From Spirochaetaceae bacterium (lineage in GTDB: Bacteria > Spirochaetota > Spirochaetia > Treponematales > Breznakiellaceae), in contig JAITCP010000180.1 in NCBI GenBank assembly GCA_031283025.1, forward strand, positions 1 to 42,081: 42,081 nt of DNA, in the 5' to 3' direction. Positions 14,999 to 40,350 of the stretch are shown one piece after another; positions within the stretch are counted from its first letter, which is position 1, and the number at the start of each line of letters is the position of its first letter. The notes beneath the pieces were generated by a model. That model made no database searches, was not told the DNA's origin, and saw only the letters and a list, made by a program, of their open reading frames with translations. The position numbers and the translations under genes are program-made.

Positions 14999-15042
14999 TT
15001 AGCCTTCCTCCTTACACAACTCATCTGATATAAATATAACAG

Positions 15043-15071
15043 AAAAGCGGCTCCCAACGTAAGCCGCTTTT
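15043..15071. terminator. Hairpin AAAAGCGGCT-cccaacgta-AGCCGCTTTT, possible bidirectional terminator
   Basis: 10-bp perfect arms with A/T tracts on both sides. Confidence 0.6.
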
Positions 15072-15118
15072 CTTTTCAGCTTTAGACGGCATGGAGGCCG
15101 TTGTTACCAAGGCTTTAG

Positions 15119-15182: not shown

Positions 15183-18100
15183 CTATGGCTGGTTTATCCC
15201 CGGCCAGCGGCTGTAGCTGGCGGTTAAGTTGGGACGCGCCATTAAGGTACCGGAGAAGTTCATTGCATTGTGAGGCTGACCAGCAGTAGCGGAGCCGTTT
15301 TGATATCCCATGTCGCACCAGCGGTGTTTGCCCGGGTAGATGGGGTAGAATGGTTTGAACGATGTCCAACCGTCAGTTTGGTACGCCATGCGTTTTGGGC
15401 CGTACTGCCATGCTTCATTCGCTGACGATGCGGCGAAATCAGTTTCAGTAAGATCACGCCCGCGTATAAAGTCTATGTATGCCGTAGCGTTCATATCCCA
15501 GGTTACAAATCTCCATGTTGAGTGATTCAGGCTGACGGTCATATTGTTATCCGTAACTAGAGTCATTAACCTGATGCCCGCCCGTTTATTGGTAAGATCG
15601 TTCCAGTTGTCTTCCCAGGTAAAAGGGAATCCCGGAATGGAAGAAGAGCTTACTGCGTCCCCGCCGCGTATCCATGCTTGATCACCATTGGCAAATATCG
15701 AACGTCCGGTGTTAGCTGTTATAGCGCCGGTTGAATTGTAGGGGGCATTGCCGCCGCGTATTGAGTAGCTAATTACCGTACGGTACGCCATTTCTTCCGT
15801 TTCGGCGCTGTAGGTAGTACCGACCACTGCCCTTGCCAGTACCCACCATTGGTAACCCTGCACATCGTTAATGTCTGGTGTATTACCATTCGCATTACTA
15901 CCAAGGGTTATCTGGTTACTGTTGGTATAAGAAGTAGTTGTCGCGTTAGCCGGACGGGTTGCGTTCGGATCATTATTATTATTTTTACCATTAGTTTCAG
16001 CATTATTATTATTAGTATTGGTAGTATTGGGAGAACTGACATTGTATCTCCAGTTATTGTTATCACCGGTAGTCCCCGGTGCATTTCCGCTTACGGTGGT
16101 TCGTCCCTCGTTTGCGGTATAGGTAATGGCAGAACCCGGGGTGCGACAATCCATACGCGCGTAAGAAAGGAAGGGCTGTGTCGCCACAAGCCTCGGTTGG
16201 GCATTCCCGGCAGTAGCAGTAGTTATCGTATCCTGGGTCTTCCTTATCCGTACAAAGGGCTTCGCCACGCCGCGCAGATTTACATCAACATTTTCCGCCC
16301 CGGAATTGTTACCCATCGAGTCGGTAACAAGACCGGAAGGCAGTGTTACCGTGTATGTCGCGCCGGGAACCTGCGGAGCGGTGGAACCAGTAAGCCGTAT
16401 TTTAAGAGTGTTTCCGTCTATCGTAACAGCGCTGGCGTTTACATTAATGGTTATTGTTTCCGCGCTACGGAAATTGGTAAACACCCCCGCCGGAATAAAC
16501 TCATTTCCGGTAAAACCAATATTATTGGCGGTTACGGAGCTGTTGGGATCATACTGGTAGTTCAACACATACTTGTTGGACGTATCCGAGCCTTGTCCGT
16601 TGATATACCCGTTTGTCCCTTTGACATAATACGTGTCAATAACGCCGCTGGTATTGGTGTTGCTTTTAAGGCGGTTGTACTGAGACTCGGTCATGACTGC
16701 GGGCAGACGGTAATTTGTACCGCTTTGCTGCGTAATGATAATGTTACCACTACCCTTGTTTATTGCGTGGTTAAACGGTACCTCCAATGTCGTCCAATAA
16801 GAGCCGTCGTCAGTCCTTATTCCATGGAAGTTCGAGTTTGTTTCAGTGTTCCAGCCTGTCCCGCCCTGATTATCTTCTATAAATACAATCATGTTTCTGG
16901 TAAGGTTCCCCGTTGCTACGGTAAACTGCTTGGTTGAATCAAGCTTTGGCGTACCGGCTGGCAGGACAATCAAACTGCTTACATTTACGCCGTTGCCCAC
17001 GGCATTGCCGTCCCATGCTGTAATGCCGGAAAGCGCGGTAATGTCCAGATACGTTGGCAACTCTCTGGAATCGTTATTTTGTACGGTATAGGTAAAGGTA
17101 AGCGAATTAACATCGCCGCCGGGTATGCTTGCGGTCGGTATGGTTACGTTAATGTTATTACCGCCCCGCTGTGCGTTAATCGTAAGCTGCGGCGTTGTTG
17201 TTGTCGCAATCCTAAGCGCTTTTCTGAAATTCAGAGTAAGTTTAATTTCATTGCGCCCGGTAACATGGGTATACTCTCCGTTGGCGCTTTCCGAACTTAT
17301 GCGGCTAATAAGCGGCCCCGGATCCCAGGTAAAGTTTACCGCAGATGTTTGCACGGATACATTCCCCGCCTTGTCTTTCTGACGGGCTATAATATTGTAA
17401 GTTCCCGACTGGGTAAGCTGAACCGGCGTGTTGGCTGTATTTCCAAAAGGAACCCAGCTTGTCCCGCCGTTTATTGAGTATTCCAGCGAATCAACTTTAT
17501 ACTGCGACGTCCCATCCCCTGTTGTATTTCCCTGTATCGCAAGCCAAAGATTGTCGTTGTAAACGTTGGTAAGATTTTTAACAGCGGCTGCGGATTCGCC
17601 CGTTACGGTATTACCGCTGACACTCTGTGAAATAACATTATTTACATTGTTTGCCGTAAGAACCCGTACCGTAGGCGCGCTAGGTAGCCGTGTTTCAATA
17701 ATTACGTTGCTTAACGTTTTGCTGCCTGTATAGACGTCGGAAATCGCGTTGGCCGCCAGCGCGTTACCAACAAGATCGGTAATGGTTCCGGAAAAAGTAG
17801 TTACAGTAACAGCGGCCCCGTTTGTCGTATCACCGGAACTGGTCTTCCTAATGGTGTATTTAAAGGTAATTTTATTGCCGCTTACCCGTACATCATCGGC
17901 GGCAGTACTTGTAGTACCATTGCTTGCTCCGTTGTTAACCGATAAGGTAAGGGCCGGCGTTCCTGTAATTTTAACCTCTTTATCAAAGGTTACCGTCATA
18001 TAAATATCGCCCGCGTTATAATAACCGGCAGCGGTATTTGACGTAATGCCGCTTACCGTGGGAGCCGCGTTATCTATTTGAATGTGCTTTCCGGCTGCCA

Positions 18101-20999
18101 GGGTAAACTGATAATCAGGATCGGCGGTATTGGCGGTAACAGGAAGGGTGCGTACAAAATACCCGCCCGATTGTATACTATTGCCGTCGTGTCCGGCAGT
18201 TGTTGTTAAACGCAGTTCTTCATACCGGCTCCCTGGTTGTCCGGCAGTTTCCCGGTCTCCGCTGTACCATGTAAACGGATAATTAGCGGCAGTAAATAAT
18301 GGCGGCTCATTTTGCAGGCCGGTAACATTAAGAGAGGTTGTATTATGGTTAGCGCCTATCGTATACACAAAGTATTGGCGGCTGTTTTGAGCCGTCTGTC
18401 CTGATTTGTATTCAGCTACGGCAGGAGCGCCTCCCTCTGTGTTAAGGAGCAGGAAGGGAGTACCCCCGTATCTTAACCTGACCGGTTTGCTGAATTCCAG
18501 GAAAATTTCTACCGTATCTCCGCTTTTATACGTACCGTCTTCTTTTTCACTGGAAATACGCATAAGCCGTATTTGGTCGGTTCTTATTAACCATGAACTG
18601 CCTATTTCCGCTTCGTTTCCGCCTATATCCTTGGCCTTTACGCTGATAACCAGGGTATCCTTGAGCTTGTCCGCCGGTAGCTGCCCGGAACCGTCGCCCA
18701 CCGTGGCTGTTATTGTCCATGTTCCTGTATCTTCGCGTCCCGGATTCTGCGTCAGCGTCAAATCTTCCGGCGGCAGTTTTATATTGTTTACGGTAACTTC
18801 AAAGTTGGATTTAAAGTACGTATTTATATCCAAATATTTTACGGAATCTTCCTCCCCTGTTCCCTCAATAGTTATGGTTTCGCCGCCTTCAAACGGCTCG
18901 ACTACCGTATATTGACCCGGTATACAGGTTACAGTCGGAGCGCCTGCTTTTGTTATTACCGCTTTGCTAATGGTAATTTTAGGAGCTAAGGTATCGCCCT
19001 GCGGCGCGTAGGTAATAATGGTCGTCTTTCCATCCGGATTTTCCGCCCTGAACAGGAATACCTGGCTTCGTAAGGGTTGTTTGTCCGCGCCTATATTCAG
19101 ATCATCAAGATTGATTACCTGTGAATAGGTAAAAACATGGCGGTTTGTCTCATTGTCTATATGGTCTTCGACAGGGGCAAGCTTCCATAGCCTGTTAGGA
19201 GAGTTTGGGTCATAATATGATTCTGTGATTGAGGGGCCGCCGGGACTTATTGAGGGCGACAGTATATCCAGCCATCCTTTGTAGTCCTTTTCGCGGAAAT
19301 AGGAAAGCTGGCTCATTGCCGCATAACCTTCAGATTCCGGGTTAATCCACACCAAGCACAGGGACTTTATTTCCGTAGCATCGCTTACCAAGCCGGTAAT
19401 GGTAATGGTATTGGGAGTACCGGGCGTACCATCCGGCCTCTTGCCTATAGCCTTAAAAAGCGGGTCGGAAGCGGGGGGCTGCGGCGGCTCGGGAAAATCC
19501 GGGAACGTAATATCCTGTACCCTGAACAGCATGGTATATGGTTCGCTTGGTTTATCCTGCGTGCTAAACGCCTGCACCTTAATAAGATAATACCCGGTTA
19601 TGGGGGGAACCTTAAATTCCCAGGGGAAAATGGTGGGGTACATTCCGGTGGGATAGGGGGTGTTTGATGCTGTTTTATCTTGATAGCTGTCTCCCGGAGA
19701 TGTTTCGGTGGTGCCAAGTACATTACCTGCTATGGGCAAACTCCACAGGCTGTACTTTACCTCTTTTACCCCATGCGCCTGGTACGCTGTAGCTTTTATG
19801 TTCCTGCCAGGATACACCATAAATACTTCCGGGTCTATACTGCCGGAAGTTTCAGCGCCAACCGGTTTGCCGTAATAATTGTAGGGCGTGCCGTCAGCAT
19901 TAACGCCTGTTGGCGGCCTTATGTCACCGGTAAATTGAATCCACGGGTCATTGGCCCTTGGCCAATAAATAAAATAGCCGATGGTTTTTTCCTGATTGGC
20001 GTTTCCCGCCGCGTCATTACAAACGGCAACCAGCTTGATCGTTGTTTTTTCCGTAACGGGGTTTACTATTTGTCCGCCGTTATATGTGCCGGGAGCGCTG
20101 TCAAGATCGGGAACCCTTACCGAGCCATTAGGCTTAATAAAGTCCCCAGGATTCACAACAGGCGGAATGGGCGGCAGGTTTTCATGATACTGGTATATAA
20201 CAGTTTCATCGGGAAGGGGAGTGGCGGGATCATCGTCAATTTCTTCATCGAAAGAATAAAAACGCAAGTCGATGGACCAAATGTCATTAAAATCGTCTAT
20301 CTGCCACTTAAGATCAAATTCCTGGGTAAGGAATCTGCCTAAATAGGCGGGGTCTTTCCAGTCATCATCCGTATCATCCCATGCATGGTATTGATCTAAA
20401 GGTGCCAGTTCATACGCCGGCTTTTTTGTACCGCTCACGTAACCGTCCCGGTAAAGATAGGGAGTTGATATATCCACCTTGGGCGGATCAAGGTCTATAA
20501 TAAGGATAACAGCCTTATAGGAATTATCATCGGAATTTCCGGCTTTATCCCAGCTTTGAACGCTAAACGTATATTCGCCGTCGCTGGTAGGCTCGCCTTC
20601 TATAGCCATGTTAATGGGAATTTTCCACTCGGCGGCTTTTTCGTTACCATCCCATACCGGCAGTTCATCGTCATAGCCCTCATACGGGTTCCATGTTGCC
20701 CCGAAATTTTCGGAAACTTCCCACGCGTCTTTACTCCAACGCCACTGGCGTTTAAATTCCTCTTCGCTCGTACCGGCTTTTATAACTATCCTGTCTACGC
20801 CGGTAAAATCCGAAACATCGCCTTCAATGGCAAATTTATGCGGAAGAGACTTGCGTTGCGATGGCGCTGTAATGTTAAGAACCGGGCCGTAAATATCCAG
20901 CTTGGAGCCTAAAGCAACCGGGTTGCCGCAGGAAAAGAACGATGCCGCAAGGGCGCAAAGGCTTATAAAAACCGTACTTATCGTTATCTTTGTTTTCAT
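15183..20999 (-). CDS. Giant surface lipoprotein with Ig-like repeats
   Basis: Lipobox AASFFSCGNP; start MKTKIT with AGGAGGAAAAGC upstream; repeated ISSE..G.Y..G..I.I.L.F...V blocks and 'DKAGNVS' Ig-like blocks. Confidence 0.85.
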   Translation of the reverse strand: MKTKITISTVFISLCALAASFFSCGNPVALGSKLDIYGPVLNITAPSQRKSLPHKFAIEGDVSDFTGVDRIVIKAGTSEEEFKRQWRWSKDAWEVSENFGATWNPYEGYDDELPVWDGNEKAAEWKIPINMAIEGEPTSDGEYTFSVQSWDKAGNSDDNSYKAVILIIDLDPPKVDISTPYLYRDGYVSGTKKPAYELAPLDQYHAWDDTDDDWKDPAYLGRFLTQEFDLKWQIDDFNDIWSIDLRFYSFDEEIDDDPATPLPDETVIYQYHENLPPIPPVVNPGDFIKPNGSVRVPDLDSAPGTYNGGQIVNPVTEKTTIKLVAVCNDAAGNANQEKTIGYFIYWPRANDPWIQFTGDIRPPTGVNADGTPYNYYGKPVGAETSGSIDPEVFMVYPGRNIKATAYQAHGVKEVKYSLWSLPIAGNVLGTTETSPGDSYQDKTASNTPYPTGMYPTIFPWEFKVPPITGYYLIKVQAFSTQDKPSEPYTMLFRVQDITFPDFPEPPQPPASDPLFKAIGKRPDGTPGTPNTITITGLVSDATEIKSLCLVWINPESEGYAAMSQLSYFREKDYKGWLDILSPSISPGGPSITESYYDPNSPNRLWKLAPVEDHIDNETNRHVFTYSQVINLDDLNIGADKQPLRSQVFLFRAENPDGKTTIITYAPQGDTLAPKITISKAVITKAGAPTVTCIPGQYTVVEPFEGGETITIEGTGEEDSVKYLDINTYFKSNFEVTVNNIKLPPEDLTLTQNPGREDTGTWTITATVGDGSGQLPADKLKDTLVISVKAKDIGGNEAEIGSSWLIRTDQIRLMRISSEKEDGTYKSGDTVEIFLEFSKPVRLRYGGTPFLLLNTEGGAPAVAEYKSGQTAQNSRQYFVYTIGANHNTTSLNVTGLQNEPPLFTAANYPFTWYSGDRETAGQPGSRYEELRLTTTAGHDGNSIQSGGYFVRTLPVTANTADPDYQFTLAAGKHIQIDNAAPTVSGITSNTAAGYYNAGDIYMTVTFDKEVKITGTPALTLSVNNGASNGTTSTAADDVRVSGNKITFKYTIRKTSSGDTTNGAAVTVTTFSGTITDLVGNALAANAISDVYTGSKTLSNVIIETRLPSAPTVRVLTANNVNNVISQSVSGNTVTGESAAAVKNLTNVYNDNLWLAIQGNTTGDGTSQYKVDSLEYSINGGTSWVPFGNTANTPVQLTQSGTYNIIARQKDKAGNVSVQTSAVNFTWDPGPLISRISSESANGEYTHVTGRNEIKLTLNFRKALRIATTTTPQLTINAQRGGNNINVTIPTASIPGGDVNSLTFTYTVQNNDSRELPTYLDITALSGITAWDGNAVGNGVNVSSLIVLPAGTPKLDSTKQFTVATGNLTRNMIVFIEDNQGGTGWNTETNSNFHGIRTDDGSYWTTLEVPFNHAINKGSGNIIITQQSGTNYRLPAVMTESQYNRLKSNTNTSGVIDTYYVKGTNGYINGQGSDTSNKYVLNYQYDPNSSVTANNIGFTGNEFIPAGVFTNFRSAETITINVNASAVTIDGNTLKIRLTGSTAPQVPGATYTVTLPSGLVTDSMGNNSGAENVDVNLRGVAKPFVRIRKTQDTITTATAGNAQPRLVATQPFLSYARMDCRTPGSAITYTANEGRTTVSGNAPGTTGDNNNWRYNVSSPNTTNTNNNNAETNGKNNNNDPNATRPANATTTSYTNSNQITLGSNANGNTPDINDVQGYQWWVLARAVVGTTYSAETEEMAYRTVISYSIRGGNAPYNSTGAITANTGRSIFANGDQAWIRGGDAVSSSSIPGFPFTWEDNWNDLTNKRAGIRLMTLVTDNNMTVSLNHSTWRFVTWDMNATAYIDFIRGRDLTETDFAASSANEAWQYGPKRMAYQTDGWTSFKPFYPIYPGKHRWCDMGYQNGSATAGQPHNAMNFSGTLMARPNLTASYSRWPGINQP

Positions 21000-21009
21000 G
21001 CTTTTCCTC

Positions 21010-24000
21010 CTACCAGTTGGTTCCATTACCGCAACTTATATTGTAACCATAGGTTAAGTCGCCGTAACCTATCATAAGGTAGTTATTTACCTCGCCAGGA
21101 GTCTGGTGGGTTCCGTTGTTATTGCCGCCGTTGCCTACTCCTGAGTCGGCGTTCGTACCGGTTGCCCTGCTTCTGCCGCCCCAGGTTAAGAAATACCATT
21201 CGCAGACAATTTCCGTGCTGACCCAATAAAACCGTTGATAGGGTCCAGCGTCATCATTGTCGTTATAAAATACCTTGTTATAACGGTTATCTCCCGTTTC
21301 CTCGGCATCCCGTACCGGAAAACCGGCGATAGAGGGCATTCCATTTTTAATGTTGGAGCCTTGTACGGCAAAGTATCTGCCCCGGTTAGTACCATAGTTT
21401 AATGCAATAACCGTTCTATAGACTCCTTCGTATCCTTTGGCGTTTGCGCCGTTAAGGATGGCAGTCCCGACAATATAGCTCTTGCTGGCTTCCAGGCTGT
21501 TAAACGTAAGGACGCTTTGCCCGCCCGACAGTATCGCGCCGCTTAACCCGGTTCCGTCCAGTTGGGCTTTTGTTAAATCCCTATTGTACGATCTAAACAT
21601 TCGTAAAGTCCCCACGGACGTGCGCGATTCGGGCGTGCTGTTTTTGGTAATAACCGTATAGGTTTGATCAGCGTTATTTCTTGACCTGCGGATAAGGTTA
21701 GATAATACCCATTCGCCGGGAGTATTGCCTGCCGCTTGATTCCATGTCATTGGGGTTATTTGCAATGTCGTGCCGGTGTTTGAGTCCGCGACACTGCCCG
21801 CCCATGCGGCGGTAACTCCGCCCCCGTTGGAATCAGCGCCTTGGTAATATTGGGCTGTTACTGCCGCGTTGGGGCTTTCGCTTTCTACGCGGTAATGTAC
21901 GGTATCAAAGTCTTTAATACCCCAGCCGTTATCACCCGCAACTCCGTTTACAGCAAAATTACTCGTAGCGGCGCTCCAGTCTGCCGAATTTGGCGGCGGG
22001 TTATAGGGCTTGGTATTATTGCCGTCCCATGTGGCGGTAGTGTTAGTGAGGGTCCATTTTGCTTCCCAGTATTCGTTTTTCGCGTCATAACTTCTGCGGT
22101 TTACCCGTATTACGGGCGCTTGTACGCCGGGGCTTGTAAAATAGTACGTGGTATTATCAGAAGCAGGCGCGTTATTCCCCGCCATATCGGTAAAGGCTCC
22201 GGCGGGATAATATACGTCCCATTCCAGGCCCTTAAGCAAGGGCTCGCTCAAGGGAATGGTTACCTGCGTATTGTTAGTTCCGCCTACAGTGGTATTAACA
22301 ACGTCAATTTCCTGCCAGCGCCATTTTGCCCTGGTAAGGGCGGCGCGTATATTGTTTACGGCGGTAACATTCTGCGTAATGCCATACTGGTAATCCAGCA
22401 CCCATTTAGTCGCCGTATCGGGAATCATGGCGGTATGGGCTCCGGTGCCTCCAAGGTTTGGAGAGTTGGCGCTGGCGGCGGCGTTGTTCGTAATGGTACC
22501 ACTATAATTCCCCGTATAACCGTATCCCTCAACCAGACCGTGAGTCATTTTTATGTATGGGCCGGCGTTCTGCCCCGTTCTGGCGTTTAGGGTAAGGTCG
22601 CTCATGCTTGAGCCTTGCGCCAGGTAGCCGCGTTCAACGCTGCCGGCTGGCAAAGCGTTATAAATATCGTAGAAGCTGGAAATATAGGTCCTGTTTACCC
22701 CGGAAGCAGAATACCTGTTTCCGTCTGTTCCAAGATAATACCCTGAGTCTTCCAGCACGGGCGGGATGGCGTAATTGCCCCGCGGCCTTATCGTTATGGT
22801 TCCGCCGCCCTTCATTACCGGTTCCCTAAAGGTAAGCATTATTGACGAAACGGCGGGGTCCGTGGCGGCGGGGGCGGTATTGTGCTGCGGAGTTCTTGCG
22901 GTAACGGAAGGGGCAATGGCATCTACTATTATGCCGGCAGCCAGGTTGGGGCAGTTACTAACGGAAATATTACCGGCCGTACCGCTATTCCATGCCGCTG
23001 TCCCGCTCGGGCCTAAACTGCCAAAGAGGTCCGTAAGGCCGTTCAAATTTACGGCGGATATGTACAGGCCGTCCCGCATTTCCTTATTGGTAATGTTCTG
23101 CCAGTTAAACGTAACGGTAGTAACGTTTGTATTGGCGGCGGTATTCGTTGGAAGGGTGATATACGTTGCTTCATCTGCCGAAGCGGCGGCCCTGTTTCTA
23201 AGCGTTATGGTTACGTTTGCGGCGTTAGTTACCCTGACCGTATCGGCAAAATTCAAGTTAAACGTTAAGGTTGACCCCGCCCGGTAAGAGCCGTTTGCCT
23301 GCGCCGCTCCAACCGAAACAAGGTTCGGGAAAGTGCTGTTTAACTGTATTACCTGACTGCGCGCAGTGCCTTCGTTTCCCGCCCTGTCTTTATAACGGGC
23401 CCTCAAGTTGGACGTGCCGCTGGCAGTGATGAGAACCGGATCTGTATAGGGGATCCATGTCCCGCCGCCGTTGATTGAATATTCTATGCTGTTTTCCCAA
23501 TTGCCGCCACCCTCAGGCGCGGGCGTTCCGTTCCATGAAAAAGCTGAAGCGTTTATCGTCAGCGTAGGGTTCGTATTGAAAAGGATCGGGGTATTTGGAT
23601 TAACCCCAAGGGTGGAGCTGCCTATGGTTCCTGTGGGTGGATCAGAGATGCTTTTCTTAATAAAGAAACGGGTACTGCCCAGTTCAAAGCTGGTTACCGT
23701 AGTTAAGTCAACGGTATTATCCACATTGTCCAAAATTGTTCCCCCATCCGTCCCCGTATACAGGCTTACATTAACCAGTTCCCCGTCTACAGGACAACTG
23801 GTAGCGTTTATTGGAAGGCTAAAAACAAGCGCGTTCTGTCCGTTTGGCCGCGAATAGGTAAACGCGGTACTATAAGGCCCGCCTAGGTTACTGTTCCCTT
23901 GCCTTATTTGGTACTGGAGGCGCGGAACCGTATCGGATGCCCTTATCTGTTTATCCGCAGTAAGGGTAAAGTTGATCGTTTCTCCTGTTTTTACGTAGAA

Positions 24001-27000
24001 CTGGTTAGGTGAATAGGCGGCTTTTCCGTTTGCATCCGCGCTAATGACGGTAATTTTGGGACGCGTACCGTCCAGTCCAATATCCTTCTTTTTTTGCAAG
24101 GTATAATCGTCCGTTGTCCAGTTAGGCATGGTTACCGACTCGCTTTTGCCTCCGGGGATAAAAGCCTGGCTGTTTCGTATATTGTCCATTATTGTTGTTT
24201 CAGGATACGTTACGGGGAGCGTAATGGGCACATTCCCTCCGACTCTTCCCCCGTACCAGGAGGAGGGAGGGGGGCCGCCGGGAGGATAACCGCTAATATC
24301 CTCATACATTGTTTCCAATAAGCCGCCAAATCCTTCCTCAACGACAAATTCAAAATCAAGGGACAATGCGGGATTGGCCTTAGTGGGCGGCGAGTTACAA
24401 ATGATAGACCTATACTGAGGGGTTCCATTAAAAAGATAGCGCACATTAATCTGTGGGTATCCGTTGGGTACGTATATCTGGCCGGAAAAATTGGCTTTAA
24501 GGGTTATCTTTTCGCCTATGCCATAGGTACCCGATTGGCTGGTTGTGGTTATATTTTCCAGCCGCGCCGCGTTGGTAACCGCAATGGTACGCTGTACCAT
24601 TGCTACATTGCCAAGCATATCCTCCGCCTCAAACAGGAAGGTTCTTTGGGCTATATCCGGAAAATACTCACAAAAACTAAAGGCCTCATCCGCCCCGTTA
24701 TAGCCGCTTCCCACTGCCGGTGCCAAATCCTTGTCGGACAAGGTTATGTCCTTCATGCTTATGCTCTTAACGGCAATGTCGCCGCCTTTTGACGCGGTAA
24801 TCCAGTATTTCACTATGGTTTCCCGCGGGTACATTGAGAACGGAGTGGAAAGATCGCCTGCGGCGCTTTTGGCTTTTATTGCATTGTAAACATTAGAATC
24901 CGAATTATACGCGTTAAGGGCGGCATAATATGCCGGGGTAAACCCGCCCGTCGCGTCGTCGGGATACCCCACATCATTCGGATTGGGAAGTTTCTTGCCG
25001 CCAACCTCCGGCATAACATCAATTTTGTGGGTAAGATCCGATACAGTAAGATTTGGGGGAGTTTTCATTCCCAACAGGCGGAGCTGCCGGAAAACGTCGT
25101 GCCCCATATTGTCCTGGGCGTAAAAGATAAAGAGCTTTGTTTCGTTTTCAAGATCGCCGTTATAGGTAAAATTTTTGTAACTGCTCTTTATGTCGTCCGG
25201 CACGTCCATAACGTTGAATGTTTTTTCAAATTTCTGGTTTCTGTACACAGTAGTCGAAATTACCTCTATATCACCGGGAAACGTGTCGGCATTTGGGTCA
25301 AATTTCCCCTCTGCAAAGCCCGATCCGGGGCCGCCGCTTTCTTGGAACTCCCAGTGTTGTACGCCCGCCAGGGCGGCGTCAAAGCTGGCAGGATAGCTGC
25401 TTGCTTTTAGGGCGTTTTGCACCCTGGTAATATAATTGTCGGCCCCATCCGGCATTCTAAAGGGAATCCACGCCATGCGGAATACTTTAACGCCGTTCTG
25501 GCCTGTCTGGTTTTCCCTTAGGGTGTAACCCTTAATGGTAAAAGATGCGCCGTCTGCAAGCGATGGGAAGGTGTTTTCTTCCGGACAGCCGTTTTCTTTA
25601 TCAAAAACAATCAGCGGCGCGTTCTCGTCTACAATTTTTACTTTCCAGACTTTGTAAGTCCAAACGTTTTTATTCGTGCGATTCGGGCCTTCTCCCGTGT
25701 GGGGAGAAAGTTTATTGTCGGCGGCCATGGTAAACAGCACATAATCGCCGTAATCACCTTCTTTATTTCCCGTTTGAACATACACAAGTTTTTCATCAAT
25801 GCTATTGTCTATAAGCTGCTTAATTTCCATGTCTTTTTGGTCACTCGGCGTTAATTCATATTTATCATACTGCCAGTTATATAACCTGCGCTCCGCCGTA
25901 TCGTTAATAACAAGGGAATCCATTCCGGTTCCGGTAAGCCGCTGTTTTAGCCATGCAACTTTTGCGTTATCATTCGCGCCTTGAATTTTTATGCCGCCTG
26001 AGTATACATCCTTTTGTCCGTTCCACTGTTCCTGGGTAAAAAGGCCCGCATAGGCCCAAAGAAGACTGTCATCGTCATAGAAATCAACCGGAAGCGGAGT
26101 ACCGCGCGATATGGTGTTTTCTGTACCGGAATCCTCAATGTCTTGCAATACTGTTAATCTTATGGCAGGATCAAGAACGCCTTTAGGATCATCCGACAGC
26201 GCCCACATACATATATAACCCTCGTCTTCCTCGACAATCTCGGTTATATTTTTGCTTTTATCAATAGCTTCAACAACAATACGGTAATAATAACGCTCGC
26301 CGTTATCATAATAATTGGTTCTATACGCGGCGCCCCATTTTGCAGCGCCGGCTTCTATTATTTCCTCTTCCTTTACTAACCAGCGGGGAAAATAATACGT
26401 ACGGTCATCGACTATATCTTCTTCCTCCAGTACTTTCAAACAAAAATCTATATCTTTTTTATAATCGTAAATTTTTAACTTTACACTTTCAATTCTGGTT
26501 TCTTCATCATTAAGCATGGCGTCCACATAGAACCAGCCGTTTTGGTAACGGTATAAATTGTCCTTTTTTTCTCCTTTGGGGTCAAGTGTTTCCAGTTCCT
26601 TTAAGTCCGGATACGGTTCAAGACGGCTCGGCCTGGTATCTGTACGCTGAATAGATATATTTTCAACTATGGGCGGCCTAATATCAATAATCAGGGTAAC
26701 AAAGGCAATGGAGTCCGCGCCGCAGTTTCCTATATTGTCGTAGGCGGAAATCTGAGCCATAATTTTTTCACCGTTTCGGCTTTCATCAAACATCAGCTCA
26801 ATTTCCCAGCGATCTCCGTTTATGACTGCCGTTAGAAGTTCTTCACCGGTTACGGAATCGGTCATTACAACCTTGCTAACCCCGACATTATCTTTAACAG
26901 TTCCGGTAAGTTTTTCGCCGTTCCGTACATAGAGGGGGTTTTGAACCTTGTCCATGGTAAGTACGGGGGGCTCCCAGTCTATTTGCCTTCCAAAGCCCAG

Positions 27001-27135
27001 AGGCGAGCCGCAGGTACTTAAAACGACGGTACAAACGCTTATAACGGCAAAAAGAATAATTAACGGAGGCTTTTCCAAAACTTCAGTTTTTGGAAAAGCT
27101 ACCTTAGATTTTAGGTTATTCTTAAAGAACGACAT
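21010..27135 (-). CDS. Giant surface lipoprotein with Ig-like repeats, paralogous to the downstream gene
   Basis: Signal and lipobox VISVCTVVLSTCGSPLGFGRQ after a 24-aa extension; Ig-like repeats; GGAGG SD before the start. Confidence 0.85.
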   Translation of the reverse strand: MSFFKNNLKSKVAFPKTEVLEKPPLIILFAVISVCTVVLSTCGSPLGFGRQIDWEPPVLTMDKVQNPLYVRNGEKLTGTVKDNVGVSKVVMTDSVTGEELLTAVINGDRWEIELMFDESRNGEKIMAQISAYDNIGNCGADSIAFVTLIIDIRPPIVENISIQRTDTRPSRLEPYPDLKELETLDPKGEKKDNLYRYQNGWFYVDAMLNDEETRIESVKLKIYDYKKDIDFCLKVLEEEDIVDDRTYYFPRWLVKEEEIIEAGAAKWGAAYRTNYYDNGERYYYRIVVEAIDKSKNITEIVEEDEGYICMWALSDDPKGVLDPAIRLTVLQDIEDSGTENTISRGTPLPVDFYDDDSLLWAYAGLFTQEQWNGQKDVYSGGIKIQGANDNAKVAWLKQRLTGTGMDSLVINDTAERRLYNWQYDKYELTPSDQKDMEIKQLIDNSIDEKLVYVQTGNKEGDYGDYVLFTMAADNKLSPHTGEGPNRTNKNVWTYKVWKVKIVDENAPLIVFDKENGCPEENTFPSLADGASFTIKGYTLRENQTGQNGVKVFRMAWIPFRMPDGADNYITRVQNALKASSYPASFDAALAGVQHWEFQESGGPGSGFAEGKFDPNADTFPGDIEVISTTVYRNQKFEKTFNVMDVPDDIKSSYKNFTYNGDLENETKLFIFYAQDNMGHDVFRQLRLLGMKTPPNLTVSDLTHKIDVMPEVGGKKLPNPNDVGYPDDATGGFTPAYYAALNAYNSDSNVYNAIKAKSAAGDLSTPFSMYPRETIVKYWITASKGGDIAVKSISMKDITLSDKDLAPAVGSGYNGADEAFSFCEYFPDIAQRTFLFEAEDMLGNVAMVQRTIAVTNAARLENITTTSQSGTYGIGEKITLKANFSGQIYVPNGYPQINVRYLFNGTPQYRSIICNSPPTKANPALSLDFEFVVEEGFGGLLETMYEDISGYPPGGPPPSSWYGGRVGGNVPITLPVTYPETTIMDNIRNSQAFIPGGKSESVTMPNWTTDDYTLQKKKDIGLDGTRPKITVISADANGKAAYSPNQFYVKTGETINFTLTADKQIRASDTVPRLQYQIRQGNSNLGGPYSTAFTYSRPNGQNALVFSLPINATSCPVDGELVNVSLYTGTDGGTILDNVDNTVDLTTVTSFELGSTRFFIKKSISDPPTGTIGSSTLGVNPNTPILFNTNPTLTINASAFSWNGTPAPEGGGNWENSIEYSINGGGTWIPYTDPVLITASGTSNLRARYKDRAGNEGTARSQVIQLNSTFPNLVSVGAAQANGSYRAGSTLTFNLNFADTVRVTNAANVTITLRNRAAASADEATYITLPTNTAANTNVTTVTFNWQNITNKEMRDGLYISAVNLNGLTDLFGSLGPSGTAAWNSGTAGNISVSNCPNLAAGIIVDAIAPSVTARTPQHNTAPAATDPAVSSIMLTFREPVMKGGGTITIRPRGNYAIPPVLEDSGYYLGTDGNRYSASGVNRTYISSFYDIYNALPAGSVERGYLAQGSSMSDLTLNARTGQNAGPYIKMTHGLVEGYGYTGNYSGTITNNAAASANSPNLGGTGAHTAMIPDTATKWVLDYQYGITQNVTAVNNIRAALTRAKWRWQEIDVVNTTVGGTNNTQVTIPLSEPLLKGLEWDVYYPAGAFTDMAGNNAPASDNTTYYFTSPGVQAPVIRVNRRSYDAKNEYWEAKWTLTNTTATWDGNNTKPYNPPPNSADWSAATSNFAVNGVAGDNGWGIKDFDTVHYRVESESPNAAVTAQYYQGADSNGGGVTAAWAGSVADSNTGTTLQITPMTWNQAAGNTPGEWVLSNLIRRSRNNADQTYTVITKNSTPESRTSVGTLRMFRSYNRDLTKAQLDGTGLSGAILSGGQSVLTFNSLEASKSYIVGTAILNGANAKGYEGVYRTVIALNYGTNRGRYFAVQGSNIKNGMPSIAGFPVRDAEETGDNRYNKVFYNDNDDAGPYQRFYWVSTEIVCEWYFLTWGGRSRATGTNADSGVGNGGNNNGTHQTPGEVNNYLMIGYGDLTYGYNISCGNGTNW
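27069..27099. repeat. Hairpin GCTTTTCCAAAACTTCAGTTTTTGGAAAAGC inside the coding start of the 2041-aa gene
   Basis: Near-perfect palindrome sharing the AAAACTTCAGTTTTT core with the 32.2-kb and 40.3-kb elements. Confidence 0.75.
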
Positions 27136-27173
27136 AACAACCTCCGCTTTGGCCTTTCAAAAAGCTGGTAACA

Positions 27174-27196
27174 TCTAAAAACCGCCTGTTTTTAGA
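27174..27196. repeat. Hairpin TCTAAAAAC-cgcct-GTTTTTAGA between giant genes
   Basis: 9-bp perfect arms, identical to the third stem of the 32.2-kb element. Confidence 0.75.
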
Positions 27197-27206
27197 AATT
27201 TCCCAT

Positions 27207-30200
27207 CTAAAAAATGTAAACACGTAACCCCATTATAACATGGGGAATAATAACTTTTATTCCCTGGGCGGATGCGTTAGCGTCCGTGGGAACAAACCAC
27301 AACTGGCCTTCTGTAAATACGCTGAATGTCCTAAATGCTCTTCTTTTCCCGGTGGCGCTTATGCGGGGGAACTCAATTTGCAGCAACAGGGCGCTCATCC
27401 AGGTTGATTCTCCGCTTTGGGTGTAGCCTTCATGCATAAGATCAAACAGTGAAAAGTTCGCGCCCAAAGAGAAGGTAGCGGAAAGCCATTCCCAGTCCGG
27501 CCCGGCAAAAGAACCAAAGGGTAAGCGGTATACGTTTGCCAGGAGTTTTAGCTCAAATACATGGCCGCCGTAACGCACGGTGGGCTTCCCGTCAATGCTT
27601 TTTTCCCCGCCTAAAGCTTCGTATTGCTTCTGGTCAATATATCCGTAACTGCCCTGTATTTTTACGTTGTCGTCATAGAAGGAAAGGCCTATCCCCACGT
27701 CGAAGTAAGTTGCGCCGCCGGAGAATATGGGCGCAAACTGGCCAAGTTGTTCGTGAAAGAACTGCCCGATAAGCGGCGGTATAGTCCCTTCAAAGTACAA
27801 ACCCTGCAGGAAGCCGGGAACGCCGTAAAACGCTTTATCGCCTTTTCGCAGATGATACGTTAAACTTATCAGTTCTATGTCGTCCTTCGCGGAACCGGAA
27901 TAGGCAATTTCCGCATTGTACCTGCTGCCCGGTTCAGGGGAAATAACCCGGATTAACGGCGGGGTCTTGTCTACCTGCACAAGGAGCCGCGTTACGGCAA
28001 CTTCCCGGTTTTTCATGGTAGTCCGCACCAGGATATAGTGCAGCCCTTCTTTCATTTCTCCGGTTTCCAGGCGGTAACGGTAGTTCACGTTCTTTTTGGT
28101 GCTTTTGTCGGTTCTATGGAACGTCCTTCCGTTGTCAAAACTTATTTCCGTATAATCGGGAGTCTTTGCCTTGATTTCATCGGCAATATCCTTTGGAATT
28201 TTTTTACCGGCAAGCATTTCCAGGTCTTCTTCACTTAAGACATAGCCGGTGCGCCCGGAAAGGTAGGGCCTGTCATAGGCAAAATCGCCGTAACTGATGT
28301 TGTCAATGGTAATCCACGGGCCGTCCGTGCGGTAAATGACATTTTGAGCGCGGGACTGTACCAGGGCGCTGCCGCCAAAAGTGCTGTGAACAATGAGGGA
28401 ATTTGTACCGGCTCCGACTTCCTCGGGTCCAAGAGAGAAACGGAAAAATCCGCTGGAATCAACTTCCTGTGTACTGCGGTCAATGCCGTTTATCCGTATG
28501 GTTACTGTTCCCGGCTTGTTGGTACCCCCGGCATAGCCGTACACGTTAAAGTTACCCTGAATTTCTTCATTGTTAAGGGGGTACAGTATTTCAACAAAGT
28601 CACGCAGGGTTTGCCGGGCAAGCTGGACGTTCCGTGAAACGCGGGTTATGTTTCCGGCTCTGTCCTGTGCCAGAATTTCCAGGTTGTAAAGGCCGTCTGC
28701 CTGCCTGCTTATGTCAAATTGTTCTTTTAGGGGGGTGGAAATTGCGCCAAGCTTGCGTGTACCCACGCTCGATCCGCTCTGAAGGCTGCGGATTTCCATG
28801 CTTATGCTTTCCAGATTGGGATCAAGGATCTGCCCCATTATGGATACAATACCGGTAAGCTGGGAACCGTCTATCGGAGTGTCCAGTATAATTTCCGGGG
28901 GCGTATTGTCAATGTTAATCATCGTTGAGTAAGTGGCCTGTATGCCGTACTTGTCTTCTATCCGGTAAAAGACCACGTGGGGGCCGTCTTCAAGTATTTT
29001 TGAATTGAACCGGTAACTCCAGGTTTCCGTACCGGCGGCGGTGTTAAAGCTGTTGCCGTTATCAACGGAAACTTTTACCTCTTTAATGCCGTTCCTGTCC
29101 GCCGCCGTTCCCCTTACTTCTATTTCATCCCGTAATACGGTGTCTATATTGGGGAATGTTATAGACCCTGTGGGCTCGGCAAGAGATACCCTGAAGTTAC
29201 GCCGTTCCGGCTTGCTTCTAACGCCGTATATGTCCTCTGCAATGACTGTTATGTAATGTTCATTGTCTGTCATTCTGGAAATGGGGATGGGGATGGAAAA
29301 GCCGTTTTCCGCTTCTATGGTTTGCTGTTGGCCGTTGTCCAGGCTCCAGTACACTTTGGCTATTGCGTCGTCATCAAACATAACGCCGGACACTAAAAAG
29401 TCAGATGTTATTACTTCATTATCCTGCGGCAGGATTACAAAAACAGTGGGGATGTCCATTTCATTATCGATAACAAATTCCCACCTGTCCAGCACGGAGC
29501 GGTTCCCCGCCATATCTTCAAAGGTAAAACGCATGGCGTTGTCAAGCGGCATTTCTATGGAGTTTGTTACAATTTCCAGGAATTTAGGGGCGTAGTCTTT
29601 ATCCCATGTGTCAACGTTAAATACTTCTTTGGTTATTGCCCGCTGGTTCCCCGCAGCCGCCCTTGTATAGGTAACGGTTTTCAGGGTGTTTGCGTTGCTG
29701 ACGGCAAAGCCCATGCGTATCATTCCGTTTACCCGCGCTTCCGCTATTGGCATAATAAGCTGCGCTTCCGTTGGTTTGGTTTTCTTTACCACGGTAAATC
29801 TGGCTATGGTTGTTTTATTAGCGTCATTGGATGACTTTACAAGTATGTTAATGCCCCCGTCTTCAACGGCGTTTATGTCAATTGTCCGGTTTATTTCCGC
29901 GCCGCTTCCCAAGCCCAGCCAGGTAGCGCCCAGATCCAAAGAATATTCAGCCGGCGTAAAGGGAACGGCGCTTGCAATATTCAACCGTACCGGAACGGTG
30001 CCCTGTACCAGTTTGCCGTCAGGAACATCGCGGAAGGTGATTGTAGGCCCGCCAAAGGCGGCAAGTATTCTGAACGGAGCGCTGTTGGAAGCGCCCCCCG
30101 CGCTTTGATAAGACAGGGTAAGCGGGCCAAAATTCCCCTCACGCAGGGCCTGTATTCTTGCCCGTCCGAATTGATCTACGCTTACGCTAAAGTTTTCCGC

Positions 30201-32105
30201 TCCCGTCCCGCGCAGCGCCACGCTTTCCAGCGGGTCTCCTATTCCATAGAGAACGTCTTCAGCGGAATCCATCAATATGCGGCCGTCCGGCAGCGTTTTC
30301 TGGCTTGCAATAACAAAGGAGCCTGCCGGATCGTACATATCCGCAACAACAAACACGTATTCATAGTAAACAGCTTCACGGTTAAACTTGTCCTTGGCGC
30401 GTAATTCTATCTTTGTCAGCCCCTGCGTCAGGTTCACCGGAACCGGCACTGTGGCGCGGAACCCGTCTTTCCCGGAGCTTGCCTTGACCGCTGCCGGGGG
30501 AAAATCCCCAAAAGCCACGGAAGCGGAAGTTAAGGAAGAAGCCTTCACGTTCAATTCCATTACCATCTTTGCCACGGGCTGTATTTTCATGCCCGAATAG
30601 AATTGCTGGGTAACATTGCTCTTGCCGGAAGGGAAGGTAATTGTGGCAAAGCGCGGTTCGGGCAGGGGGCCGGGAACCACTATGCCCTTTAACGGAACCT
30701 TGGGGCCGGCGATGCCGGAAACATCCTTGGCCCACACTTCAATGTTATGAACGCCTTCAGGAAGATCCGGTATAATAAACTGGAAATAGCCGGAACAGGG
30801 AATTGCAACTTCCGCTCCTCCGTTAATTGAATAAAGAACGGAAGCGACGCCGTCTGCCGCCGTAGCGGTTCCCTTAACCGCCAGATAATTGGTTTCAGTT
30901 AGGGTAAAGCCGGAGGCGGGTTCCTGTAATGTTACCCGTGCCATGCCCGCATTTTGATCTACTTTATATTTTTGTTTGGCAACGGTTACATTGCCGGAAA
31001 CATCCTCCGCCTTAATTTCTATGTCTATGGCGGAAATTTTTTGGCCGCGGGTGTCAATGTCCAATGACCACCAGGAATTTCCCTTTATAAGGGGGATTTC
31101 CCCGCTGTCCTTGCCTGCTTTCCAGGTTACTTTGTTTATCCCAACCGGATGAGAGGCGTACCCTGCAATGGTAAAAACGCCGAAAACAACCGTTGATGGA
31201 TCAGGGTAAACAATCTTTACTTCCGGGTTCGTATTGTTCGCAAATAAGAGGTGTGCGGCGCTCCCAATGGAACCCGTCCCGTCCTTGGCTTTCAGCCAGA
31301 TAACAGCCGGCCCGTCATCAAACGTTTTGCTGTTAATGGCGATTTCCCAATTATACAACGCGTTCCTTTTGTCATATTTTACGGATACCGGAACATAGGT
31401 TTTCCCGTTGTCAACCGAATAACTTAAACTGCTTATTCCGTTGCCGTCCTGGGCCGTGCCTTTCAGGTTTACCTTCCCGGAAACCAGCGCCCCCACTTCA
31501 TGGCTGGTTACGGTAATTTCCGGGTTTTTCCGGTCAAGATTCCAGAAAACCTGATGTTTTTTATGCTGTTTTGGCTTGAAACTCGTTGAAATGCCGGAAA
31601 GTTCGTTTATGTCCGTCGCCCATGCCGTTATGGTGTACTCGCCGTCAGTCCAAATTTCAGGATTTGTCGTATCAAGCATGAAAGACCAGAATTCGGTCCC
31701 TCTTGCGCGGGTACGTATCAGTTCTTCACCTTTCCCGTCCCTGCCGCGGTTAATGGTAAGCTCAACATATCCAACGCCGTCATCATCGGTGGCAATGCCA
31801 ACAATGTTAAGGTTCCCCTGTACCCGCATATTATAGCTGGGGTTGATAACGGTTACTCTTGGCAGATCTGATTCGGGGTCAATGTAGATGTTTTCCGGGC
31901 CCCCCAAAGCAACATTACCGGCTTTGTCGGTGGCTTCATACAGGTAATTGTACTTCCCCGCCGGTTTGGTTGAAGTATCTACCGGATCGGTAAACCCGGA
32001 CGGATCCGCAGCTTGACGGGATATATTCTCTTTTCTGCCGCCCCCCCAAAGAGCCGTACAGAAACAAGCCAATAAAATGCAGAAAAGAAAAGTGTTTTTT
32101 GCCAT
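27207..32105 (-). CDS. Giant Ig-repeat protein with a C-terminal outer-membrane beta-barrel-like domain
   Basis: Signal peptide MAKNTFLFCILLACFCTALWGG; many 'NTPPEI...I.G...D.N.I..V..S.D.G' Ig-like repeats; C-terminal alternating aromatic strands ending LRVYIF; start chosen at MAKNTF (ORF extends to 32144). Confidence 0.82.
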   Translation of the reverse strand: MAKNTFLFCILLACFCTALWGGGRKENISRQAADPSGFTDPVDTSTKPAGKYNYLYEATDKAGNVALGGPENIYIDPESDLPRVTVINPSYNMRVQGNLNIVGIATDDDGVGYVELTINRGRDGKGEELIRTRARGTEFWSFMLDTTNPEIWTDGEYTITAWATDINELSGISTSFKPKQHKKHQVFWNLDRKNPEITVTSHEVGALVSGKVNLKGTAQDGNGISSLSYSVDNGKTYVPVSVKYDKRNALYNWEIAINSKTFDDGPAVIWLKAKDGTGSIGSAAHLLFANNTNPEVKIVYPDPSTVVFGVFTIAGYASHPVGINKVTWKAGKDSGEIPLIKGNSWWSLDIDTRGQKISAIDIEIKAEDVSGNVTVAKQKYKVDQNAGMARVTLQEPASGFTLTETNYLAVKGTATAADGVASVLYSINGGAEVAIPCSGYFQFIIPDLPEGVHNIEVWAKDVSGIAGPKVPLKGIVVPGPLPEPRFATITFPSGKSNVTQQFYSGMKIQPVAKMVMELNVKASSLTSASVAFGDFPPAAVKASSGKDGFRATVPVPVNLTQGLTKIELRAKDKFNREAVYYEYVFVVADMYDPAGSFVIASQKTLPDGRILMDSAEDVLYGIGDPLESVALRGTGAENFSVSVDQFGRARIQALREGNFGPLTLSYQSAGGASNSAPFRILAAFGGPTITFRDVPDGKLVQGTVPVRLNIASAVPFTPAEYSLDLGATWLGLGSGAEINRTIDINAVEDGGINILVKSSNDANKTTIARFTVVKKTKPTEAQLIMPIAEARVNGMIRMGFAVSNANTLKTVTYTRAAAGNQRAITKEVFNVDTWDKDYAPKFLEIVTNSIEMPLDNAMRFTFEDMAGNRSVLDRWEFVIDNEMDIPTVFVILPQDNEVITSDFLVSGVMFDDDAIAKVYWSLDNGQQQTIEAENGFSIPIPISRMTDNEHYITVIAEDIYGVRSKPERRNFRVSLAEPTGSITFPNIDTVLRDEIEVRGTAADRNGIKEVKVSVDNGNSFNTAAGTETWSYRFNSKILEDGPHVVFYRIEDKYGIQATYSTMINIDNTPPEIILDTPIDGSQLTGIVSIMGQILDPNLESISMEIRSLQSGSSVGTRKLGAISTPLKEQFDISRQADGLYNLEILAQDRAGNITRVSRNVQLARQTLRDFVEILYPLNNEEIQGNFNVYGYAGGTNKPGTVTIRINGIDRSTQEVDSSGFFRFSLGPEEVGAGTNSLIVHSTFGGSALVQSRAQNVIYRTDGPWITIDNISYGDFAYDRPYLSGRTGYVLSEEDLEMLAGKKIPKDIADEIKAKTPDYTEISFDNGRTFHRTDKSTKKNVNYRYRLETGEMKEGLHYILVRTTMKNREVAVTRLLVQVDKTPPLIRVISPEPGSRYNAEIAYSGSAKDDIELISLTYHLRKGDKAFYGVPGFLQGLYFEGTIPPLIGQFFHEQLGQFAPIFSGGATYFDVGIGLSFYDDNVKIQGSYGYIDQKQYEALGGEKSIDGKPTVRYGGHVFELKLLANVYRLPFGSFAGPDWEWLSATFSLGANFSLFDLMHEGYTQSGESTWMSALLLQIEFPRISATGKRRAFRTFSVFTEGQLWFVPTDANASAQGIKVIIPHVIMGLRVYIF

Positions 32106-32245: not shown

Positions 32246-32370
32246 GGGAATCTCTGAAAACTTCAGTTTTTAGAGATTTACCTCTGAAAAACGCACGTTT
32301 CGCAGCCCAAAGGGCGAGAAACCGCAAAGGAACCTCTAAAAACAACCGGTTTTTAGAAGGTTCCCCAATT
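32246..32370. repeat. Compound three-hairpin dispersed repeat, copy A
   Basis: About 120 bp nearly identical to the reverse complement of 40227-40350. Confidence 0.9.
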
Positions 32371-40226: not shown

Positions 40227-40350
40227 AATTTGGGGAACCTCTGAAACCGGTTGTTTTTAGAGGTTCCTTTGCAGTTTCTCTCCCTTTGGGCTGCGAAACG
40301 TGCGTTTTTCAGCGGTAAATCTCTAAAAACTGAAGTTTTTAGAGATTCCC
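40227..40350. repeat. Compound three-hairpin dispersed repeat, copy B (inverted relative to copy A)
   Basis: Reverse complement nearly identical to 32246-32370; contains perfect AATCTCTAAAAACT-ga-AGTTTTTAGAGATT. Confidence 0.9.

Follow-up and report, generated by a model that had tools for sequence, protein, structure and literature searches.

What does a spirochaete build from three consecutive giant genes, the first of which ends in a predicted outer-membrane β-barrel, and on which side of the outer membrane would its long chain of Ig-like domains lie? The question is raised by a 42,081-nucleotide stretch of DNA (contig C161, referred to as the window) from a Spirochaetaceae draft genome of 2.15 Mb. 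The three genes, P1, P2 and P3, are intact ORFs that lie side by side on the minus strand and, from their likely starts, encode proteins of 1,632, 2,041 and 1,938 aa (Table 1). A sequence-only reading of the window had already described three giant ORFs here. As the frames are uninterrupted over 1.6–2.0 kaa and all three proteins have full-length relatives, they are not chance ORFs. Gaps of 71 bp (P1–P2) and 10 bp (P2–P3), the latter with an AGGAGG ribosome site between the two genes, suggest one putative operon, in agreement with the same reading.

The total of terminator-like sites in the scanned region is near the shuffled expectation, which is a caveat on the hairpin found after P3. The nearest flanking genes are on the opposite strand to the trio and have no evident link to envelope assembly; on one side they encode a phosphofructokinase, DUF4139 and DUF3990 proteins, and on the other a CxxCxxCC protein, a metallo-β-lactamase fold protein, DnaG and the housekeeping sigma factor. 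As the source genome is only 65% complete, the absence of further copies of the trio from it means little. Among the named genomes (the best 80 of 185 matches) the closest relatives of the window are Treponema MAGs, several of which belong to sets whose names we take to be those of termite-gut studies.

Table 1. Features of the P1–P2–P3 locus and associated elements; positions refer to the window unless a locus is named.
Feature	Position	Strand	Basis or remark
P1 ORF	27207-32144	(-)	From first in-frame TTG; likely ATG 32105
P1, Ig-chain protein with C-terminal outer-membrane barrel	27207..32105	(-)	ORF, translation, Big_7 domains, orthologues
P1, about 14 Ig-like (Big_7-type) repeats	27828..32015	(-)	Iterated HMM; conservation along 73 full-length orthologues
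P1, predicted 8-stranded OmpA-type β-barrel domain, ends in Phe	27210..27803	(-)	AlphaFold2, Foldseek, amphipathic strands
P2, giant lipoprotein, first-position type, 2041 aa	21010..27135	(-)	ORF; its orthologue at related loci is the first lipoprotein
P2, predicted lipidated Cys (LSTC/GSPLGFGRQID)	27010..27012	(-)	Invariant in 41 family members; profile match begins there
P2, C-terminal region, conserved block GYEGVYRTV..GSNIKNGMPSIAGFPVRD..YWVSTEIV	21013..22116	(-)	Alignment
P3 ORF	15183-21026	(-)	Likely ATG 20999 behind AGGAGG
P3, giant lipoprotein, second-position type, 1938 aa	15183..20999	(-)	ORF; its orthologue at related loci is the second lipoprotein
P3, predicted lipidated Cys (FFSC/GNPVALGSKLD)	20928..20930	(-)	Family alignment; profile match begins there
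P3, C-terminal region, related to that of P2 but divergent	15186..16259	(-)	Alignment
Terminator-like hairpin after P3: 13 pairs, loop 7, T-rich tail	15041..15073	(-)	Of such stems in the scanned region, the longest
Dispersed palindromic element, core AAAACTGAAGTTTT, variable complementary arms	27077-27090, 32257-32270, 40326-40339
Protein of about 330 aa at related loci	L039:17159-18220, L058:1437-2525, L057:15353-16363, L046:2-997, L095:3983-4897

P1 begins with a Sec signal peptide that has no lipobox and continues with a chain of Ig-like domains, which Pfam recognizes as Big_7 in six stretches (E 7e-49). A profile iterated on the P1 family gives about 14 repeats rather than the 'dozens' counted by eye from the sequence, and 14–15 is also the commonest number in the orthologues. 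These are proteins of 1.2–2.3 kaa at 79 named loci (among the best 80 of 185 matches). The Ig-barrel gene is duplicated in tandem in L055, L056 and L057, three genomes of the window's family, each copy encoding 1.38–1.42 kaa. Conservation along the chain was followed in 73 full-length orthologues. Ig domains 1–5 (residues 61–480) share 33–58% identity with the window's P1 and most of the last six share 30–56%, with a variable middle part (residues 481–840) at 19–29%. The barrel is 40–56% identical, so that the outer Ig domains are about equally conserved.

The C-terminal domain of P1 comprises about 198 aa and ends in Phe, as expected of the barrel that had been suspected there. AlphaFold2 folds the last 320 aa of the protein with eight strands at a pLDDT of mostly 80–98 (59-sequence alignment), a strand count that comes from a single prediction. 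The polar and apolar faces of the strands alternate, with small bulges in strands 4 and 6, and Lys, Glu, Gln and Arg residues within the strands are invariant. The top Foldseek matches, OmpA, NspA, OmpX and Ail, are all eight-stranded. As the E-values are weak (0.011 at best; for OmpA a probability of 0.98 with E 0.011 and r.m.s.d. 8.4), the barrel is described as 'OmpA-like' by topology, with homology unproven. The domain has no match to Pfam or NCBIfam models, and a PDB sequence search with the barrel profile gives no relative. Neither the OmpA family nor the peptidoglycan-binding OmpA-like periplasmic domain of Pfam is matched by P1.

The number of strands bears directly on the direction of the Ig chain. 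By an established rule, an outer-membrane barrel of eight strands with its C-terminal Phe at the periplasmic edge also has its N-terminus in the periplasm. Eight strands in P1 would therefore place the N-terminus of the barrel, and with it the Ig chain, in the periplasm. The variability in length of the segments between strands fits this placement: the orthologues show 8, 8, 6 and 7 different lengths for the four putative outer loops and 1, 1 and 5 for the inner turns, so that two of the three turns never vary. A barrel of this size is also too narrow for a polypeptide to pass through its pore for export. In a surface stalk one would expect the outer end to be the most variable part, and the conservation of the outer Ig domains of P1 suggests otherwise, short of proof. 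On the model, then, the Ig chain probably points into the periplasm. Two considerations sit less easily with this: fourteen extended Ig domains would measure about 55 nm, which is long for the periplasm unless the chain is bent or runs along the cell, and Ig repeats are commoner in surface adhesins, which counts against a periplasmic location.

P2 and P3 share a common N-terminal arrangement consisting of a signal peptide, a relaxed lipobox, a short GxG-[VIL]D motif and an Ig-like module. The residue at position −1 is Thr or Ser, which makes the lipobox of the relaxed spirochaete type. All 41 members of the lipoprotein family that were aligned keep the Cys, together with one Gly and one Pro. 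With signal peptide and lipobox Cys both present, the two proteins are predicted to be acylated. They are homologous to each other (25% identity over 916 aa, E 2e-21, with a second match at the N-terminus). The lipoprotein assignment and the related N-termini noticed from the sequence thus hold, and both N-terminal motifs are present; only the gene order needs amending, STCGSPLGFGR belonging to P2 in the middle and SCGNPVALGS to P3 at the end. Searches of Pfam, NCBIfam and PDB place neither protein in a functional family, Pfam and the PDB sequence searches giving no match at all. OmpL47-type repeats of NCBIfam reach 27.3, 37.8 and 25.5 bits in the three window proteins against a curated cut-off of 40. 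With these as the only family matches for P2 and P3, the earlier term 'Ig-like blocks' is reasonable for them, on weaker grounds than for P1.

The palindromic element listed in Table 1 has a core with 179 exact copies in the draft genome; the reversed control has 0. One copy, at 27077, falls within the coding start of P2, where it encodes FPKTEVLEK, a peptide absent from P2 orthologues; it resembles the in-gene palindromic elements of Rickettsia.

At the C-terminus P2 and P3 have a conserved block in common, to which two class-level relatives give weak distant matches. An AlphaFold2 model of this region of P2 was discarded (pLDDT 39, 8 sequences). The giant lipoproteins of oral and rumen treponemes end instead in repeats that by eye look like propeller blades, and the C-termini of the family thus vary by lineage. 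Open frames of 5–7.6 kaa for giant lipoproteins were seen in the treponeme relatives G488, G039 and G485.

The barrel profile and the lipoprotein N-terminal profile were searched in 393 Spirochaetota genomes, 110 of which encode the barrel protein, mostly in one copy. Ig-type domains are common to P1 and the lipoproteins and inflate weak matches, those of P1 itself reaching about 7e-16 with the lipoprotein profile; strict thresholds were therefore applied. At E ≤ 1e-16 the lipoprotein N-terminus is found in 102 of the 110 barrel genomes and in 2 of the 283 others, and at E ≤ 1e-20 in 92 and 0, respectively. A co-occurrence of 110/110 at E 1e-6 was rejected as the profile there also matches the Ig domains of P1. 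The values at E ≤ 1e-16 bear out the expected co-conservation of the trio across spirochaetes, and the co-occurrence is partly phylogenetic.

Within a single genus (g61) all 41 barrel-positive genomes encode the lipoprotein at E ≤ 3.4e-25, and in at least eight barrel-negative genomes (G235, G301, G305, G413, G483, G492, G508 and G515), one of them a single contig, the lipoprotein match is absent or weak (5e-8 in G483). Both components are missing from the smallest treponeme genome sampled, a single contig of 1.1 Mb from the same order that is similar in size to the genome of T. pallidum. One genome of the window's family (G078, 94% complete) has a lipoprotein N-terminus (1.8e-19) and no barrel match, possibly from an assembly gap or loss.

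Adjacency was read from the best 80 of 185 matches in named genomes, 76 of which have a readable next gene. At 45 of these 76 loci a lipoprotein gene lies directly downstream of the barrel gene; upstream of it, at up to 9 further loci, is a large gene on the same strand, which at some of them is clearly a related giant and at others is not, and at 22 the barrel gene has no lipoprotein beside it. Near-complete genomes contain one barrel gene to between one and about five lipoprotein genes, encoding up to 6 kaa in those checked, and one draft genome has open frames of 6.5–7.6 kaa belonging to this family. Among the matches listed, the three-gene order with distinct P2- and P3-type genes recurs at eight related treponeme loci, where P2 is by far the better match for the first lipoprotein and P3 for the second. 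At L069, for example, P2 scores 741 bits with the first lipoprotein and 37 with the second, and P3 scores 812 bits with the second and 60 with the first. As the two orthologues have been kept distinct at all eight loci, the three genes form a fixed set in the window's clade.

A subset of treponeme loci has, between or beside the barrel gene and the giant gene, a gene for a protein of about 330 aa that by eye resembles a solute-binding protein and has no Pfam or NCBIfam match in the members scanned. The idea of a third universal partner was rejected, since the protein is found at part of the loci only and a search of the 65% complete source genome did not find the closest relative tested.

Several known systems combine comparable parts. 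OmpA resembles P1 in having a small eight-stranded barrel and in the expected periplasmic position of its partner domain; in P1, by contrast, this domain precedes the barrel, consists of about 14 Ig domains in a chain and has giant lipoprotein partners. Type Va autotransporters have a C-terminal 12-stranded barrel with a passenger pore, and type Ve intimin/invasin proteins an N-terminal 12-stranded barrel followed by a C-terminal Ig passenger. Both, like P1, unite a barrel and an Ig-like or passenger region in one chain. These models fail because of barrel size and position: eight predicted strands do not fit a classical autotransporter, of which Pfam also finds no family match, and a C-terminal barrel of eight predicted strands does not fit an intimin or invasin. 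To our knowledge the Lig proteins of Leptospira are without a barrel and without a known co-conserved barrel partner. LigA and LigB are spirochaete Ig-repeat proteins with 12–13 Ig domains (PMC12183334). Big_2, the Ig repeat type of LigA and LigB, has no match in P1–P3 or in the window contig by Pfam scan; large Big_2-type proteins, of another Ig family than P1, are encoded on other contigs of the source genome G000 (C60, C175, C27, C130 and C128). The similarity of P1–P3 to the OmpL47-type repeat proteins of Leptospira (NF047446/NF047441) is weak, all matches being below the NCBIfam cut-off. No description of the barrel/lipoprotein pair was found in literature searches.

Three other explanations have to be weighed against a periplasmic Ig chain with lipoprotein partners. 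The sequence-only reading made P1 a surface-displayed, barrel-anchored stalk that forms an adhesin or fibre together with P2 and P3. Ig-repeat chains of this kind, with Big_7 and Ca_tandemer-like matches, are indeed typical of adhesins, and the C-terminal regions of P2 and P3 are lineage-specific. This model is nevertheless unlikely given a predicted eight-stranded barrel whose N-terminus would be periplasmic and which would offer no channel to a polypeptide, the loop and turn lengths, and outer Ig domains that are highly conserved instead of variable; the stalk is the part of that reading that finds no support here.

Slam proteins have an N-terminal periplasmic repeat region (TPR) before a C-terminal barrel. 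One such outer-membrane protein serves several lipoproteins (PMC9090332, PMC5449769). By analogy, P1 could be devoted to translocating or assembling the giant lipoproteins, and the gene logic is similar: repeats precede the barrel, and one outer-membrane protein is matched to several lipoproteins that are often adjacent and are lost with it. However, P1 has no DUF560/Slam-type match in Pfam or NCBIfam, Ig instead of TPR repeats, and a predicted barrel too small for a translocon. As the gene logic is shared and the barrel family is not, Slam membership is not claimed, and such a dedicated role seems distinctly unlikely. Finally, P1 might be an OmpA-like tether that links periplasmic structures to the outer membrane, with independent lipoproteins that merely share its regulation and lineage. 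The OmpA-like barrel and the barrel genes without an adjacent lipoprotein would suit such a tether, but joint presence and loss within one genus and the conserved operon order make it improbable.

The barrel/lipoprotein set is a widespread, uncharacterised spirochaete cell-envelope system of putative function. Our preferred reading, to which we give a probability of about one half, is that the trio is a version of this system in which a barrel-anchored periplasmic Ig chain partners one to about five giant lipoproteins. Such a pairing of one chain with several lipoproteins suggests a shared dock, anchor or assembly partner. The first component of the system would be a usually single-copy outer-membrane protein, held in the membrane by a small eight-stranded barrel and with some 14 Ig domains hanging as a chain into the periplasm. 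The second would be the giant lipoproteins, of 1.5–7.5 kaa, with their common N-terminal lipobox and GLGxxVD-Ig module; a duplication of the lipoprotein gene in the clade of the window would have given the fixed P2 and P3 pair. The conserved Ig chain of P1 may bind the lipoproteins through their N-terminal Ig module, which is likewise conserved, so that P1 would hold or organize them at the outer membrane as a fibrous coat or scaffold. Their lineage-variable C-termini could then form the distal, ligand-facing part, possibly exposed at the surface. More tentatively, and with some doubt on our part, the set may be a hitherto nameless, spirochaete-specific envelope machine in which an OmpA-type barrel with a periplasmic Ig chain docks giant lipoproteins and with them builds the inner or outer coats of treponemes.

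Among the widely conserved outer-membrane proteins seen here in treponemes, the barrel protein ranks with the largest; it is present in oral (T. putidum, T. vincentii and T. socranskii) as well as rumen species (T. ruminis and T. bryantii). For this protein the prediction is opposite to the obvious adhesin reading, as the Ig chain would lie inside the outer membrane. We know of no genes assigned to the coats of termite-gut spirochaetes. Electron microscopy of these organisms shows an outer membrane with thick coats, inner and outer (PMC13067680). The barrel/lipoprotein operon is a candidate, and nothing more, for the genes behind them.
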